54,899 nucleotides of DNA from an uncultured delta proteobacterium (GTDB taxonomy: Bacteria; Myxococcota_A; Polyangia; Polyangiales; Polyangiaceae). A program made the position numbers and the translations under genes. Under the pieces are notes generated by a model that searched no databases, had not been told where the DNA came from, and was given only the letters and a program-made list of their open reading frames with translations. The stretch is from contig CAIQDA010000510.1 of NCBI GenBank assembly GCA_903870415.1, positions 1 to 54,899 of the forward strand. Reading direction: 5' to 3'. Below are positions 2,687-8,534 of the stretch, piece by piece (within the stretch, counting starts at the first letter, position 1; each line of letters opens with the position of its first letter).

Positions 2687-2961
2687 CGTCCCTCGCCAAA
2701 CTTGTCGTTGAGCAGCGCCTCGATCGCCGTGAGGCATTCGGACGCGCGCTCGCCCGTCGCCGTGACCTCGATGCTCGTGCCTTGCGACCCGCACAAGAGC
2801 AAGAGGCCCATCACGCTCTTTGCGTTTGCGACTTCACCTTCGCGCGAGACGTCGACCTCGCATGGAAACTTGGATGCAAGCTGCGCGAGCTTCGTGGCTG
2901 CGCGCGCATGAAGGCCGAGGGCGTTCTGAATGATGAACTCGCGGGTGATCGAATCGCTCAT
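2683..2961 (-). CDS. ptsH: HPr phosphocarrier protein
   Basis: HPr carries phosphate from enzyme I to EIIA proteins. The 92-residue product has the catalytic histidine at His18 in ALGLHARAA and a serine in NAKSVMGLLLL (Ser49) that fits the HprK phosphorylation site. The start ATG overlaps the rapZ stop as ATGA and its stop overlaps the ptsI GTG, so translation is coupled along the operon. The presence of both the His and the Ser site together with hprK in the same operon means two phosphorylation inputs are likely to meet on this protein. Confidence 0.97.
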   Translation of the reverse strand: MSDSITREFIIQNALGLHARAATKLAQLASKFPCEVDVSREGEVANAKSVMGLLLLCGSQGTSIEVTATGERASECLTAIEALLNDKFGEGR

Positions 2962-3908
2962 GGAACTCTCGAAGAAGATTGGGGAGAACTCGAACGCTCG
3001 ACGTCACGGTGCTTGACGAGGATTGAACTTGAGGTCGTCGCTTGAAGGTCCTTCGCGAGCGCCTCGGCGATGGCGACCGACCGATGCTTTCCCCCAGTGC
3101 ATCCGATACCGATCGTTAGATAGCTTTTACCCTCGCGTTCGTAGCGAGGCAAAACAAACGCGAGCAGCTCGCGCGTTCGCTCCATGAAGCCTTGCGCCTC
3201 CGGGCGAGAGAGCACGAAGTCGGAAACCCGAGGGTCGGTTCCGGAGAGCTCCTTGAGGTCCGGCACGAAGTACGGGTTGTCGATAAAACGAACATCGAGG
3301 ACCACGTCAGCGTCGACGGGCGGACCGTACTTGAACCCGAACGAAACCACGCGCGTGGTCATGCCTGGGGCTCCATGGGCACCGGAAAAACGCTCGACGA
3401 TGTGGCGACGCAGCTCGTGCACCGAAAGGCCCGTCGTGTCGACGACAAACGAGGCCCGGGCACGCAGCGGGGCAAGACGCTCACGCTCCGCCTCAATGCC
3501 CTCAAGCACGCCCCCGGCGCCGTCGCGCTGAAGCTCCTGCGGCAACTCGGCAGAAAGCGGATGTGGACGCCGCGTCTCGCTGAAGCGCCTCAGCAGCGCC
3601 TCGTCGGTCGCATCGAGGAACGTCACGATGAGCTCGCGAGCTCCTCCCTCCTCAATGCGCGCCAACATCTCTCCCATTTGAGGAAGGAACGCACGAACGC
3701 GCACGTCCATTCCGAGCGCGATGCGGTCGATGCCGCCGGCGACGCAGACGGCAACCGCTTGCGCGGCGAGCACCGTGGGAAGGTTATCGACGCAGAAATA
3801 ACCGAGGTCCTCGAGCGCCTTCAACGCGGTGGATTTTCCCGCGCCGGACAGACCCGTGACGACGACGACGACAGGCTTTGGCAGCCGAGGCGGAAGAGAC
3901 GTGCTCAT
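2958..3908 (-). CDS. rapZ: RapZ-family nucleotide-binding protein
   Basis: The product (316 residues from the chosen ATG) begins with a P-loop, VTGLSGAGKST, followed by DLGYFCVDNLP, and has the C-terminal RapZ signature blocks VVSFGFKYGPP, DVRFIDNPYF and GCTGGKHRSVAIAE. In enterobacteria RapZ is an RNase E adaptor that controls GlmS through small RNAs; outside that group the role is less clear, but linkage with PTSNtr genes is common. A longer frame begins at 3992, but its N-terminus overlaps hprK; the ATG at 3908 overlaps the hprK stop (ATGA) and matches family starts. It also overlaps ptsH by ATGA. Confidence 0.94.
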   Translation of the reverse strand: MSTSLPPRLPKPVVVVVTGLSGAGKSTALKALEDLGYFCVDNLPTVLAAQAVAVCVAGGIDRIALGMDVRVRAFLPQMGEMLARIEEGGARELIVTFLDATDEALLRRFSETRRPHPLSAELPQELQRDGAGGVLEGIEAERERLAPLRARASFVVDTTGLSVHELRRHIVERFSGAHGAPGMTTRVVSFGFKYGPPVDADVVLDVRFIDNPYFVPDLKELSGTDPRVSDFVLSRPEAQGFMERTRELLAFVLPRYEREGKSYLTIGIGCTGGKHRSVAIAEALAKDLQATTSSSILVKHRDVERSSSPQSSSRVP

Positions 3909-5026
3909 TCGTTGTCCGTCGGATTTCGCACGACCCACGCGTGACTCTCGGAGGACACGCCAGGCCCGTCGTCGCGCTCGTTCGTATCCCACGCGACGTC
4001 GTGCGTGCTCACGTCGAGGTAGCTCGGAACAGGTGGCGGCACGGCACCGTGAACCGCAGCGACGGCGGGTTGTCGGCTCGTGCGAAGTCGCTCGATGAAA
4101 CTCTGAGACGTGTTGATACCACGACGACGCAAGAGTTCATTTCGCGCGGCGATTTCCAAGATAGCACCGAGGTCGCGCGCCGGGCGCACAGGCACGGTTA
4201 CCTCGCGAACGGGGACCTCGAGAAGCCGATGGTACTGGTCGTCGATACCGAGTCGCTCGTATTCCTCGTCCTCGTTCCATTCGACGAGACGAACGACCAT
4301 GTCGATGCGCTTGCGCTCGCGCGTGGCCGTGATGCCGAAGATCTCTTTCACGTCGAGAATGCCGAGACCGCGGATCTCAAGATGATGCGCGAGGCGCGGA
4401 TCGGGAACGCCGAACACGAGTCCCGGCGGCCGCCAATCGCAGTGCACCACATCGTCGGCGATGAGGCGGTGGCCACGCATAATGAGCTCGAGGGCGCACT
4501 CGCTTTTGCCGATGCCACTCTTGCCGAGAATGAGAAGCCCCACGGTGAACACGTCGACGAGCACCCCATGGAGCGAGGTGCGCGGCGCGAGTCGTTCGTC
4601 GAGCACCGCATGGACCGCGTTGATCGTTCGGCTCGAACGCGCCTCGGACAGAAACAGCGGAACGGAGAGCTTGTCGGCCTCTTCCAGAATCGCCGGATGA
4701 GGGCGGTTGTTGCCCGTGACGATCACGCACGAGAGACCAAGGCCATAGAAGAATCGCATCGCCTCGCGCTTGCGTTCGTCGTCGAGTGTGGCGAGAAATG
4801 AAAGCTCGGTTTCCCCGATAATTTGCACGCGTGTCGGCACAACGCCGTAGCCATGCCCAACGAGCGCGAGTCCCGTTTTTTGCACGCGCGGATGCGAGAT
4901 GAGTCGCTCGCTCGCCGACGCTGTGCCCGCAAGCGGGAAGAGCTTCAGACCCACGAGCGGATCCGCCACGAGGTCCGCCGTGGTCATCCGCGGAACCTGC
5001 GGAGTGCGACTCGCGCGCGGGGTCAA
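3905..5026 (-). CDS. hprK: HPr kinase/phosphorylase
   Basis: Bifunctional enzyme that phosphorylates or dephosphorylates HPr on its serine. Visible motifs are the P-loop LILGKSGIGKSE, the adjoining ADDVV block, and the signature LEIRGLGILDVKEIFG with the acidic phosphorylase site. The N-terminal domain (about 1-150) is the variable HprK substrate-sensing domain. At 373 residues it is longer than the usual ~310 because of a proline/acidic tail of about 55 residues after RRRGINTSQSF. The start is ambiguous: the TTG at 5026 overlaps the ptsN stop as TTGA, in keeping with the other overlaps of the operon; an ATG at 4987 would give 360 residues and keeps the whole conserved region. I favour the coupled TTG slightly. 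Confidence 0.93.
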   Translation of the reverse strand: MTPRASRTPQVPRMTTADLVADPLVGLKLFPLAGTASASERLISHPRVQKTGLALVGHGYGVVPTRVQIIGETELSFLATLDDERKREAMRFFYGLGLSCVIVTGNNRPHPAILEEADKLSVPLFLSEARSSRTINAVHAVLDERLAPRTSLHGVLVDVFTVGLLILGKSGIGKSECALELIMRGHRLIADDVVHCDWRPPGLVFGVPDPRLAHHLEIRGLGILDVKEIFGITATRERKRIDMVVRLVEWNEDEEYERLGIDDQYHRLLEVPVREVTVPVRPARDLGAILEIAARNELLRRRGINTSQSFIERLRTSRQPAVAAVHGAVPPPVPSYLDVSTHDVAWDTNERDDGPGVSSESHAWVVRNPTDNE

Positions 5027-5496
5027 GGCTTCACGGTCCCTTCTTCCGCTGCGATGAGCGCGAGGGCTTCTTCACCCGTCATCGTTTCGAGAAGGCGGCC
5101 ACGAAACGCGGGCGTGCGCAGAAGGCGTGAGATGCGCGCGAGCGTTTTGAGATGCTCACCGGCCGCGCGCTTGGGGCTCAACACCGCGACAATGATGTGC
5201 ACGGGCTTGTCGTCGATGGCCTCGAAGTCGATCGGCGGTCGCGAGAGGATGATCGCGGCAACTTGGTGATCGAGCTCTTCAAGCGAACCGTGGGGAATCG
5301 CGACGCTCTCGCCGAGTCCGGTCGACTGAAGATCTTCACGCTCCGCGAGTACGCGACGCACTTCATCGCGCGGCAGCGGGGTGGTGCTCGCGACCACATC
5401 GGCAAGGATCGAGAGGCACGCTTTCTTAGCCAACGGCACGGACTCCGCGAGCACGATGTGAATGCGACGCGGATGGAGAAGATCGACGAGGCCCAT
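5023..5496 (-). CDS. ptsN: PTS IIA-like nitrogen regulatory protein
   Basis: EIIANtr-type phosphoacceptor of about 157 residues. The phosphorylatable histidine is in GLGESVAIPHGS, and the later block HLKTLARISRLLR is typical of the family. Start at the ATG at 5496 (MGLVDLLHPRR), preceded by GTGGAG at a good ribosome-binding distance; the open frame extends further upstream through a terminator-like hairpin and is not coding there. It heads the ptsN-hprK-rapZ-ptsH-ptsI operon and lies close to rpoN and hpf, as in many proteobacteria, where EIIANtr regulates potassium, nitrogen and carbon functions by protein contacts. Confidence 0.93.
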   Translation of the reverse strand: MGLVDLLHPRRIHIVLAESVPLAKKACLSILADVVASTTPLPRDEVRRVLAEREDLQSTGLGESVAIPHGSLEELDHQVAAIILSRPPIDFEAIDDKPVHIIVAVLSPKRAAGEHLKTLARISRLLRTPAFRGRLLETMTGEEALALIAAEEGTVKP

Positions 5497-5560
5497 GACG
5501 GCTCCACTTTTAGCAAATGCGCACGCGCTTGACCCCGAGCTTTGCGCATCAGCTTGCACG

Positions 5561-5597
5561 AAAAAAAAACGCCGCAGCCCCATCGGACCGCAGCGTT
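5561..5597 (-). terminator. Intrinsic terminator between hpf and ptsN
   Basis: Read on the minus strand there is a 10-bp stem (arms 5588-5597 and 5568-5577, two G-T wobbles, 10-nt loop) followed directly by nine T residues. This is a well-formed rho-independent terminator placed 40 bp after the hpf stop and 64 bp before the ptsN start. It would separate hpf from the PTS genes, or attenuate read-through into them. Confidence 0.8.
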
Positions 5598-5636
5598 CTT
5601 GAAATCGGACGCGCCCGCAGGCGCCCCCGTCACACC

Positions 5637-5984
5637 TCACTCTTCGTCAGCAACCTCGGGAAGCATGCGCGACGACGCACGTTCGGCTCCCTTGACCTTC
5701 GCGCCCGCGGCGTCTTTGAGCTCGCGAATCTGCCGTTCGAGCTTGTCGACGACCCGGTCAATCGAAACGTACATATCCTCGGATGACTCGGTCGCGTGGT
5801 AGCGCTCCGGTCCCGCGTGAAGCTCGGCTTCGACGTGGTGGGTGCGGTGATTCTGCGTACTAAGCGTGAGCTGCGCCTTCATGGGCTGGCGCAAGAATCG
5901 CTGGAGTCGGCCCAGCTTCTCTGACGCGTGGTCTTTGATCGCGTCGCTTCCATCCATCTGCCGAAACGTGAACGAGATGTTCAT
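5637..5984 (-). CDS. hpf: Ribosome hibernation-promoting factor, short form
   Basis: Small HPF/RaiA-type protein (115 residues) that binds the 30S subunit and stabilises idle ribosomes in stationary phase. It starts MNISFTFRQMDGSDAIKDHA and has the family's basic, beta-alpha-beta pattern (LGRLQRFL, KAQLTLS, VEAELHAG, DMYVSIDRVVDKLERQ). It lacks the C-terminal dimerisation domain of the long form. The start at 5984 is preceded by GGAGG with a 6-nt spacer, which decides against an in-frame ATG at 6005. It is downstream of rpoN, its usual neighbour in proteobacteria, and is followed by an intrinsic terminator. Confidence 0.93.
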   Translation of the reverse strand: MNISFTFRQMDGSDAIKDHASEKLGRLQRFLRQPMKAQLTLSTQNHRTHHVEAELHAGPERYHATESSEDMYVSIDRVVDKLERQIRELKDAAGAKVKGAERASSRMLPEVADEE

Positions 5985-6107
5985 GGTCTGCCTCCGCAAG
6001 CACAAGGGCGCTTCTTAACGATTTCATGCGCCCGACTACAGAACGCACCGAGCCTCGACACACTTCCCATCCACGAACGATTTTTTGGTGCTCCGCGCAG
6101 TGCGTGT

Positions 6108-6243: not shown

Positions 6244-8340
6244 TCAGAATAGCTTCTTTCGCTTCGTCGACGAGAGGATTCGAAGCTCCTCACGGTACTT
6301 CGCGACCGTGCGCCGAGCGATGTCGATTCCGGCGTCTTCGCGTAGTTTTTTCACGATGTCCTCGTCGGAATACGGCTTCCGCTTGTCTTCCGCTTCGACC
6401 AAGCGTTTGATTGCAACCTTCACGCTTTCGGAAGCGATGTCCTCGCTCGTCTCGCTCGTCTCGCGGCGAATGGACGAGTTGAAGAAGTACTTCAGCTCGA
6501 AGAGACCAAGCGGCGTGTGAACCCACTTGCTCGTGGTGACGCGGCTGATCGTCGACTCGTGGAGCTCGAGGGGAATCGCAACGTCCTTCAACGTCATCGG
6601 GCGCAAGTTTCCTCCGCCGATGTCGAAGAACTCGGCCTGAAGCTCGACGATCTTTTCGGTCACGCGAACGATCGTTTTCCTGCGTTTTTCCAGAGAGGAA
6701 AGCAAGTAGAGCGCGTTGCGAACCTTCTCGTCGATGAACTTCTGCGACTGCTTGTCGTTGCCGCGCAGCTGCTCGGCGAGGGCCTCGTTCAGGTAGAAGC
6801 GCGGCATGCCGCGGTCGTTGTCTTGCACGACCCACTTGTCGCCGTCGCGAATCACGAACACGTCGGGCGTGATGCCGATCGACTTGTCGTCCGTGTTCGA
6901 GAAGTTGCGCGCCGGCGTCGACTCAAGCTCGCGAATCGCCTTCACGGCCTCGTAGACGTCGTCCACGGGAACGCGCAGATCCTTGGCAATTGCCCCGTAA
7001 TTCTGCTTTTCGAGGTTGCCCATATGGCGCTCGATGATCGCAAGTTCGAGCTCGTCGTAATTGAGCACCGTGGCCTGCACGCGAAGGCACTCCTGGAGGT
7101 TGCGGCTGCACACGCCGAGCGGATCCCACAGCTGCATCTCCGCAAGCACAGACTCCGCGTCGTCGGGGTCAAGCCCCGTTTGTTCCGCAAGCTCTTCGAG
7201 GGTGACTGCGTTGTTCGACTCGCGAAGCGAAGGGCGTGGCCTGTTGTCCGAAAGACTCTCGATGCGCCCAAGCGCCCGCAACTTTTCATGCGGCTCAACG
7301 TCGAGCGCCGACACGCGCGCGAGGTGGGCAATTGCAGACTCCAAGAGCCCATCTTGAAGCAAGTCCACGGCGCGATTTCGAGTCCGCGTCTTCAGCTCGC
7401 GACCCGCCCGCGGCATGTATTCCTGAAACGATCGCAACGCGGTTTCAAGGCGCTCAGAGACGTCTGCGCTCAGACGCCCAATCTCGCGCACGCATCCGAT
7501 CGCGGCTCGATAAAAGGCCCCGTTCGGAGTCTTCGACTCTCGAATCATCGCGAGGACGTCGCGCGCCGGCGGCTTCGTCTCCGACAAACGCATGACCTCG
7601 GCGTGAACCGACAGCGCGTCTCGAAGCGCCTGCTTCGCGAGCGCCGTCAACTCGTCGACTTCCTTGGTTTCTTCCGCGGAAAGATCCGTGCCGGCGAATC
7701 GCTTGAAGGAGTCTCGCGCTTCGTCGAATCGCCCCACGTTCTCAAAGAAGACCCCGAGGTTGTAGACGAGAAGCTTCGCGGTGAGGTCGCCCTCGATGGA
7801 CTCGATAAGCTCGTCGATCGACTTGTCGTACGAAGTTCGGAGATCGAGGAAACCCTTCTCGTCGAGGTTCGCGATCACGAGCTCGGCGAAGTCACGCTCA
7901 CGCTCGGTGAAGTCGCTCGTTTGCAGCTGGAAGCGCAAGTGTTCATCGAGCGTTTCCGCGCGCGTGTACGTCGCTTCGATGGGTGGAGCCTCGCCCTCGC
8001 CAAGGCGCACTTCGCCGACTTTTTGCTGCGAACGGTTCTCAAGAAACGCTTCCCAGTCGATGTCGTTGACGTGCTCGTCTTCTTTGCGCTTCGTCAGATC
8101 GCTCGCATCGATGCGCTCGGACATCGCGGACGCCGAGTCGGACTCGGTGGGAGAACCTGCTTCACGCAGCACGCGCGCGGTCTGACCGTCGTCCTCCGCG
8201 AGCACCGGATTCGACTCGAGCTCGCGTCGGATTTCCTCGACCAATTCCGCGCGTGACAACTGCAGCAAGCGAATCGCCTGCTGAAGCTGCGGCGTCATCA
8301 CGAGGTTCATCGACTGCTTGAGGGACTGACGAATCTCCAT
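6244..8340 (-). CDS. rpoN: RNA polymerase sigma-54 factor with a large insertion
   Basis: Sigma-54 directs transcription from -24/-12 promoters with AAA+ activators. Region I (residues 1-45) has the expected glutamine/leucine-rich start (LKQSMNLVMTPQLQQAIRLL). The core-binding domain begins at about 118 (TLDEHLRFQLQ, IANLDEKGFLDLR) and resumes at about 379 (VTLEELAEQTGLDPDDAE, LWDPLGVCSRNLQECL). The DNA-binding domain has ESTPARNFSNT, the HTH-like LHESTISRVTTSKWV, and a full RpoN box ARRTVAKYREEL near the C-terminus. At 698 residues it is over 200 longer than usual: residues about 169-378 have no counterpart in the standard protein and include VYNLGVFFENVGRFDEARDS, which looks like a TPR helix pair. 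Start chosen at MEIRQSLKQ; a longer frame upstream lacks family similarity. Confidence 0.95.
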   Translation of the reverse strand: MEIRQSLKQSMNLVMTPQLQQAIRLLQLSRAELVEEIRRELESNPVLAEDDGQTARVLREAGSPTESDSASAMSERIDASDLTKRKEDEHVNDIDWEAFLENRSQQKVGEVRLGEGEAPPIEATYTRAETLDEHLRFQLQTSDFTERERDFAELVIANLDEKGFLDLRTSYDKSIDELIESIEGDLTAKLLVYNLGVFFENVGRFDEARDSFKRFAGTDLSAEETKEVDELTALAKQALRDALSVHAEVMRLSETKPPARDVLAMIRESKTPNGAFYRAAIGCVREIGRLSADVSERLETALRSFQEYMPRAGRELKTRTRNRAVDLLQDGLLESAIAHLARVSALDVEPHEKLRALGRIESLSDNRPRPSLRESNNAVTLEELAEQTGLDPDDAESVLAEMQLWDPLGVCSRNLQECLRVQATVLNYDELELAIIERHMGNLEKQNYGAIAKDLRVPVDDVYEAVKAIRELESTPARNFSNTDDKSIGITPDVFVIRDGDKWVVQDNDRGMPRFYLNEALAEQLRGNDKQSQKFIDEKVRNALYLLSSLEKRRKTIVRVTEKIVELQAEFFDIGGGNLRPMTLKDVAIPLELHESTISRVTTSKWVHTPLGLFELKYFFNSSIRRETSETSEDIASESVKVAIKRLVEAEDKRKPYSDEDIVKKLREDAGIDIARRTVAKYREELRILSSTKRKKLF

Positions 8341-8534
8341 CGCGCTCCTGGAAACCTGCGCACGAAAGTGCGACGACGGGAGCGTAACGGAGTTGGCCTG
8401 ACTTTCGCTAGCAATCCGCGCAACGAAGGTTCTTCGCGCGGAGTGACTCACCGGATTGGGGCAAAAAGTACTGGATAGTCGCCAAGCGGCAGCGCTGTCG
8501 ACGCCGCACCACGCATTGGCTACGGTCCCGCGCC

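Follow-up and report, generated by a model that had tools for sequence, protein, structure and literature searches.

The window (the whole stretch of DNA analysed, 54,899 nucleotides) encodes a sigma-54 factor with a folded helical domain inserted into its core-binding domain, which is a new architecture of a known protein family. The inserted domain comprises 210 residues (169-378 of 698; 7207..7836, reverse strand), as delimited by alignment with relatives and by AlphaFold2 prediction. An insertion of this length at this place had been proposed in a sequence-only reading, and its coordinates proved exact by alignment. Homologous RpoN inserts were found in seven genomes from three genera, g1 (that of the window), g12 and g18, all of one family (Polyangiaceae according to record titles). 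The insert is interpreted here, with a probability of roughly 0.5, as a TPR-type protein-docking domain placed at the RNA-exit side of the sigma-54 holoenzyme and binding a partner protein. Full-text searches of the open-access literature turned up no description of a sigma-54 whose core-binding domain has an insertion.

The rpoN gene and its conserved regions

The window contains one canonical rpoN (6244-8340, reverse strand). The open reading frame 6244..8451 of the same strand was identified as sigma-54 by TIGR02395 (390 bits, cut-off 277). The start of rpoN is probably the ATG at 8340 (CDS 6244..8340, 698 aa) rather than the upstream GTG at 8451 (735 aa), because homologs begin with MEI(R/K)Q. 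The functional regions around the insert, already described as intact in the sequence-only reading, were recovered by Pfam: region I, or activator-interacting domain (AID; 8200..8331, PF00309, 62 bits for a cut-off of 23.8), the core-binding domain (CBD; PF04963, 147 bits in two stretches flanking the insert) and the DNA-binding domain (DBD; HTH and RpoN domain, 6253..6741, PF04552, 188-191.8 bits), all on the reverse strand. Alignment and the split PF04963 match place the first piece of the core-binding domain (AETLDEHL...GFLDLR) at 7837..7959 and the second (VTLEELAEQTG...PARNF) at 6901..7206, and the intact RpoN box ARRTVAKYRE was read in the sequence at 6289..6318 (reverse strand in each case).

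Seventeen AAA+ activators (PF00158, E <= 1e-40) were counted in the window's genome; the number per genome is 11-17 in the window's genus and 24-34 in the two other carrier genera. With AID, HTH and RpoN box intact and 11-34 such activators per genome, the ordinary enhancer-dependent pathway thus appears to be retained.

Downstream of rpoN, and on the same strand, the translations resemble those of hpf (5637-6005), ptsN (5023-5640), hprK (3905-5026), rapZ (2958-3992) and the PTS enzyme I gene (833-2794). Genes of the ptsN, hprK and rapZ types are usual neighbours of rpoN; hprK-, rapZ- and ptsI-like genes also lie 3' of rpoN in L106, and hprK- and rapZ-like genes in L108. Comparison of the rpoN neighbourhoods for a shared new gene or partner gave none beyond this usual cluster.

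Position and predicted fold of the insert

In the alignment with relatives, the 210 extra residues sit exactly between LDLR and VTLEELAE. At this site, most of the family has a 12-residue loop, which is similar in sequence in all the insert-free family members that were aligned. In other families of the order, the loop counts 5 residues in three members and 49 in one, and E. coli sigma-54 is continuous (query 167/381 versus chain 159/161). From its N-terminal to its C-terminal end (all on the reverse strand), the insert consists of a first TPR-type module (LTAKLLVYNLGVFFENVGRFDEARDSFKRFAGTDLSAEETKEVDELTA, 7639..7788; Pfam, profile search and repeat comparison), a helical spacer (7417..7629; structure prediction, with the absence of a repeat match as control), a second TPR-type module (RELKTRTRNRAVDLLQDGLLESAIAHLARVSALDVEPHEKLRALGRIES, 7243..7404; repeat comparison) and a linker of low pLDDT that leads back into the core-binding domain (7207..7242).

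When the whole protein was modelled with AlphaFold2 (26-sequence alignment), the insert was its highest-confidence part, entirely helical and with a pLDDT of 92-97 over most residues; modelled alone, it gave a pLDDT of 91.6, a pTM of 0.85 and ten main helices. The sequence-only reading had allowed that prediction might return only disordered filler; a confident helical domain was obtained instead.

Against the Pfam TPR models, the insert alone scored 18.9 bits (E = 0.0015), below the curated cut-off of 27.9, and it is for this reason named TPR-type and not filed as a member of a TPR family. A profile built from nine inserts matched consensus TPR proteins (CTPR, E down to 1e-25) and MamA (3e-6) in hmmsearch, over the first ~56 positions of the insert, which bears out the TPR-like segment noticed earlier. 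An insert profile also found small TPR proteins in the same bacterial family (E from 1e-9 to 1e-14). Comparison of the insert with itself showed that residues 17-66 and 145-198 are homologous (probability 96%, E = 2e-9; spacer control, E = 0.6); the domain is therefore made of two TPR-type modules with a helical spacer between them, and the second module, near the C-terminal end, had escaped the sequence-only reading. Foldseek searches with the insert alone returned no match at E <= 0.001. The best VIA-align matches were TPR proteins, with 14-3-3 proteins also in the list, at Z of 8-10 over 66-85 residues, a range common for helical proteins generally, so that these matches are taken as consistent with TPR kinship and nothing further.

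The insert is mildly acidic (pI 5.0-6.0), and its surface would therefore be closer to a protein-binding than to a nucleic-acid-binding one, although the argument is weak. Its conserved polar positions are mostly structural in appearance.

Proposed role of the insert

Sigma-54 is usually described as regulated via AAA+ activators, and TPR domains are in general protein-docking modules. In the proposed mechanism, a domain of ~200 residues with a module-spacer-module arrangement would have been grafted into a surface loop in the first half of the core-binding domain, sigma-54 would keep its normal enhancer-dependent role, and a partner protein docked on the insert would recruit, retain or modulate the sigma-54 holoenzyme. 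The core-binding domain of sigma-54 is located at the RNA exit, where it touches the alpha-CTD, the beta flap and the beta' zinc finger (PMC10786286; PMC7057263), and the insert would for this reason be displayed near the RNA-exit side of the holoenzyme.

The sequence-only reading had spoken of an inserted interaction module that would provide sigma-54 with a new partner or with a means of holding or activating it. Pfam, AlphaFold2, the profiles and the internal repeat uphold a domain that is inserted, folded and partly TPR, within intact sigma-54 regions; binding of a partner, or holding or activation through it, is plausible for a TPR domain. A conserved, folded extra domain in the part of sigma-54 that grips the polymerase would point to a second regulatory input of this factor.

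Possible contact with the polymerase core

A different function, possible though unlikely, would be that the insert itself contacts the RNA polymerase core (alpha-CTD, beta flap or its coiled-coil) and acts as an extra clamp, with a stronger holoenzyme or a slower release of sigma and no outside partner. The insert does lie within the domain that already makes such contacts at the RNA exit, and the truncated paralog described below retains it together with part of this domain. Matching changes in RpoB, by comparison, did not hold in a wider test: four RpoB positions separated insert-bearing from insert-free genomes, but controls with phylogenetic structure reached counts just as high (0-6), and the most striking of the four, M987, was also present in 9 insert-free genomes among 84 sequences (duplicates removed). 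At position 992 (numbering of the window's genome, G000; L132), close to the beta flap, the five carriers with an RpoB have E, K or A, and nearly all insert-free relatives have I or V; this position is the sole lead left by the comparison, and a weak one.

Two further RpoB-like open reading frames were observed. The first, of ~1234 residues, is a second and divergent one (G019:C408:1513-4695, L142; best piece 287 bits to TIGR02013), and a shorter one is found in G029:C32.

Selection and rate of change

The insert is under purifying selection: its dN/dS is 0.17-0.24 within genera g1 and g18, where computable, with a high dS. Its length is 206-228 residues in all ten sequences, for a between-genus identity that goes down to ~24%. 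In most pairs, the dN of the insert is about two or more times that of the flanking pieces of the core-binding domain, and a loosely constrained add-on would therefore also fit. A general acceleration of RpoN in carriers was considered and rejected, the RpoN/RpoB distance ratio being high in g12 alone (~4) and within range in g1 (2.4) and g18 (1.8).

Taken further, these rates could indicate a tolerated passenger, that is, a stable helical domain in a loop of variable length that is kept as harmless. Such a reading draws on the natural variation of this loop in the order (5 to 49 residues), on the faster change of the insert compared with the rest of the protein and on the flexible appearance of its C-terminal link, but we hold it to be improbable in view of a dN/dS well below 1, a confident fold, a length maintained in three genera and in the paralog at ~24% identity, and the fact that no decayed or shortened inserts were seen.

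A truncated sigma-54 paralog that keeps the insert

A second, degenerate sigma-54-like gene is present in the window's genome on another contig (G000:C468, 8201-9577; L039). Its counterparts (L037:1777-3231 and L038:1599-3005; 52-53% identity) bring its occurrence to 3/3 genomes of the window's genus, and no other was found among 108 genomes of the family. The paralog lacks region I and stops after the HTH, in which most of the recognition residues ESTISR are changed; the Pfam scan detected partial CBD and DBD only. Of 36 conserved positions in the RpoN domain, the paralog of the window's genome, which also has no helix of region I, keeps none, and the three paralogs keep 0-2. All of them keep the insert, in the same place, together with 7-9 of the 16 conserved core-binding positions before it and 8-11 of the 17 after it. 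The insert thus appears to be tied to the core-binding half of the protein and not to the activator or to the -24 DNA contact, and the paralog can be regarded as a natural dissection of sigma-54.

In all three genomes, TssF- and DotU-like genes (a T6SS-like cluster) are located near the paralog, and TssG- and IcmF-like genes are also present on the longer contig of G002. Other neighbours were noted: an alanine-rich repeat protein (L039:9574-10734; L094:21-2105) has a few bases in common with the start of the paralog, and its counterpart in G001 contains many copies of a ~35-40-residue repeat; an FGE-sulfatase-type gene (PF03781 in the window's genome) lies 3' of the paralog.

Combining these elements, one may tentatively propose, as an improbable extension of the docking reading, that sigma-54 acquired a docking domain on the RNA-exit side of the polymerase and that the T6SS-tied duplicate of one genus, capable of core binding but not of promoter recognition, competes with sigma-54 or titrates it through the same domain, as an anti-sigma factor or decoy. 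Another arrangement, in which the insert would be the docking site of a negative regulator (anti-sigma-like protein or truncated paralog) that holds sigma-54 off the core or the promoters until its release, is quite doubtful: the docking function of TPR domains generally and the occurrence of a paralog with the same insert in the window's genus speak for it, but the two other carrier genera have no such paralog, which therefore cannot be the general reason for the insert, and no anti-sigma candidate was identified.

Distribution and history of the insert

In a survey of the class (289 genomes) with a full-length insert-bearing RpoN as query, an unbroken match across the insert was obtained in the seven carriers only, among the matches listed; the other RpoN matches listed start close to the end of the insert or past it. 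A survey of the phylum (377 genomes) gave full-length insert matches in genomes of g1 and g12 only, those of g18 being outside this sample. In the large genomes of the family that consist of a single contig, RpoN contains no insert. The concern, raised in the sequence-only reading, that well-studied myxobacterial RpoN proteins might have the same insert was thus not borne out, either in these large genomes or in the class and phylum surveys, which revealed no other carriers among the matches listed.

The five named carriers are all MAGs, labelled by their submitters as uncultured delta proteobacterium (Lake Erken), Polyangium aurulentum, Polyangiaceae bacterium, Myxococcales bacterium and Sorangium cellulosum. 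Although genomes of this kind invite the suspicion of an artefact, be it a misassembly, a frameshift, an intein or another spliced-out element, this is very hard to credit, because separately assembled MAGs share the insert, which is in frame in seven genomes (five of them traced to different named records), has no internal stops and has profile matches to TPR proteins but none to inteins.

In the RpoB tree, g1 and g12 are sister genera (support 84/76, modest) and g18 stands apart; grouping of the carriers in a single clade was rejected on this tree (p = 0.008), whereas it was not rejected on the RpoN tree computed without the insert (AU p = 0.066). Because the RpoB tree splits the three carrier genera into more than one clade, gene transfer or losses would be involved. 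Repeated exact losses seem less likely than transfer, since the aligned insert-free family members share a similar 12-residue loop, and transfer of rpoN or of part of it seems the likelier history from these comparisons.

Comparison with known systems

MamA and the consensus TPR proteins share with the insert the TPR signature over module 1, but the two modules of the insert are split by ~80 residues and probably do not form a continuous TPR superhelix. The small TPR proteins of the family (e.g. L033, L034, L036) have one TPR stretch that matches the first ~72 residues of the insert; in contrast to it, they are stand-alone proteins with a likely transmembrane segment, and the similarity that can be found directly is limited to module 1. 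Sigma-54 forms without region I are known as laboratory bypass forms (PMC4551910), and the truncated paralog resembles them in the loss of this region. It differs from them in that the RpoN box and most of ESTISR are also lost, and recognition of -24/-12 promoters is therefore not expected of it.
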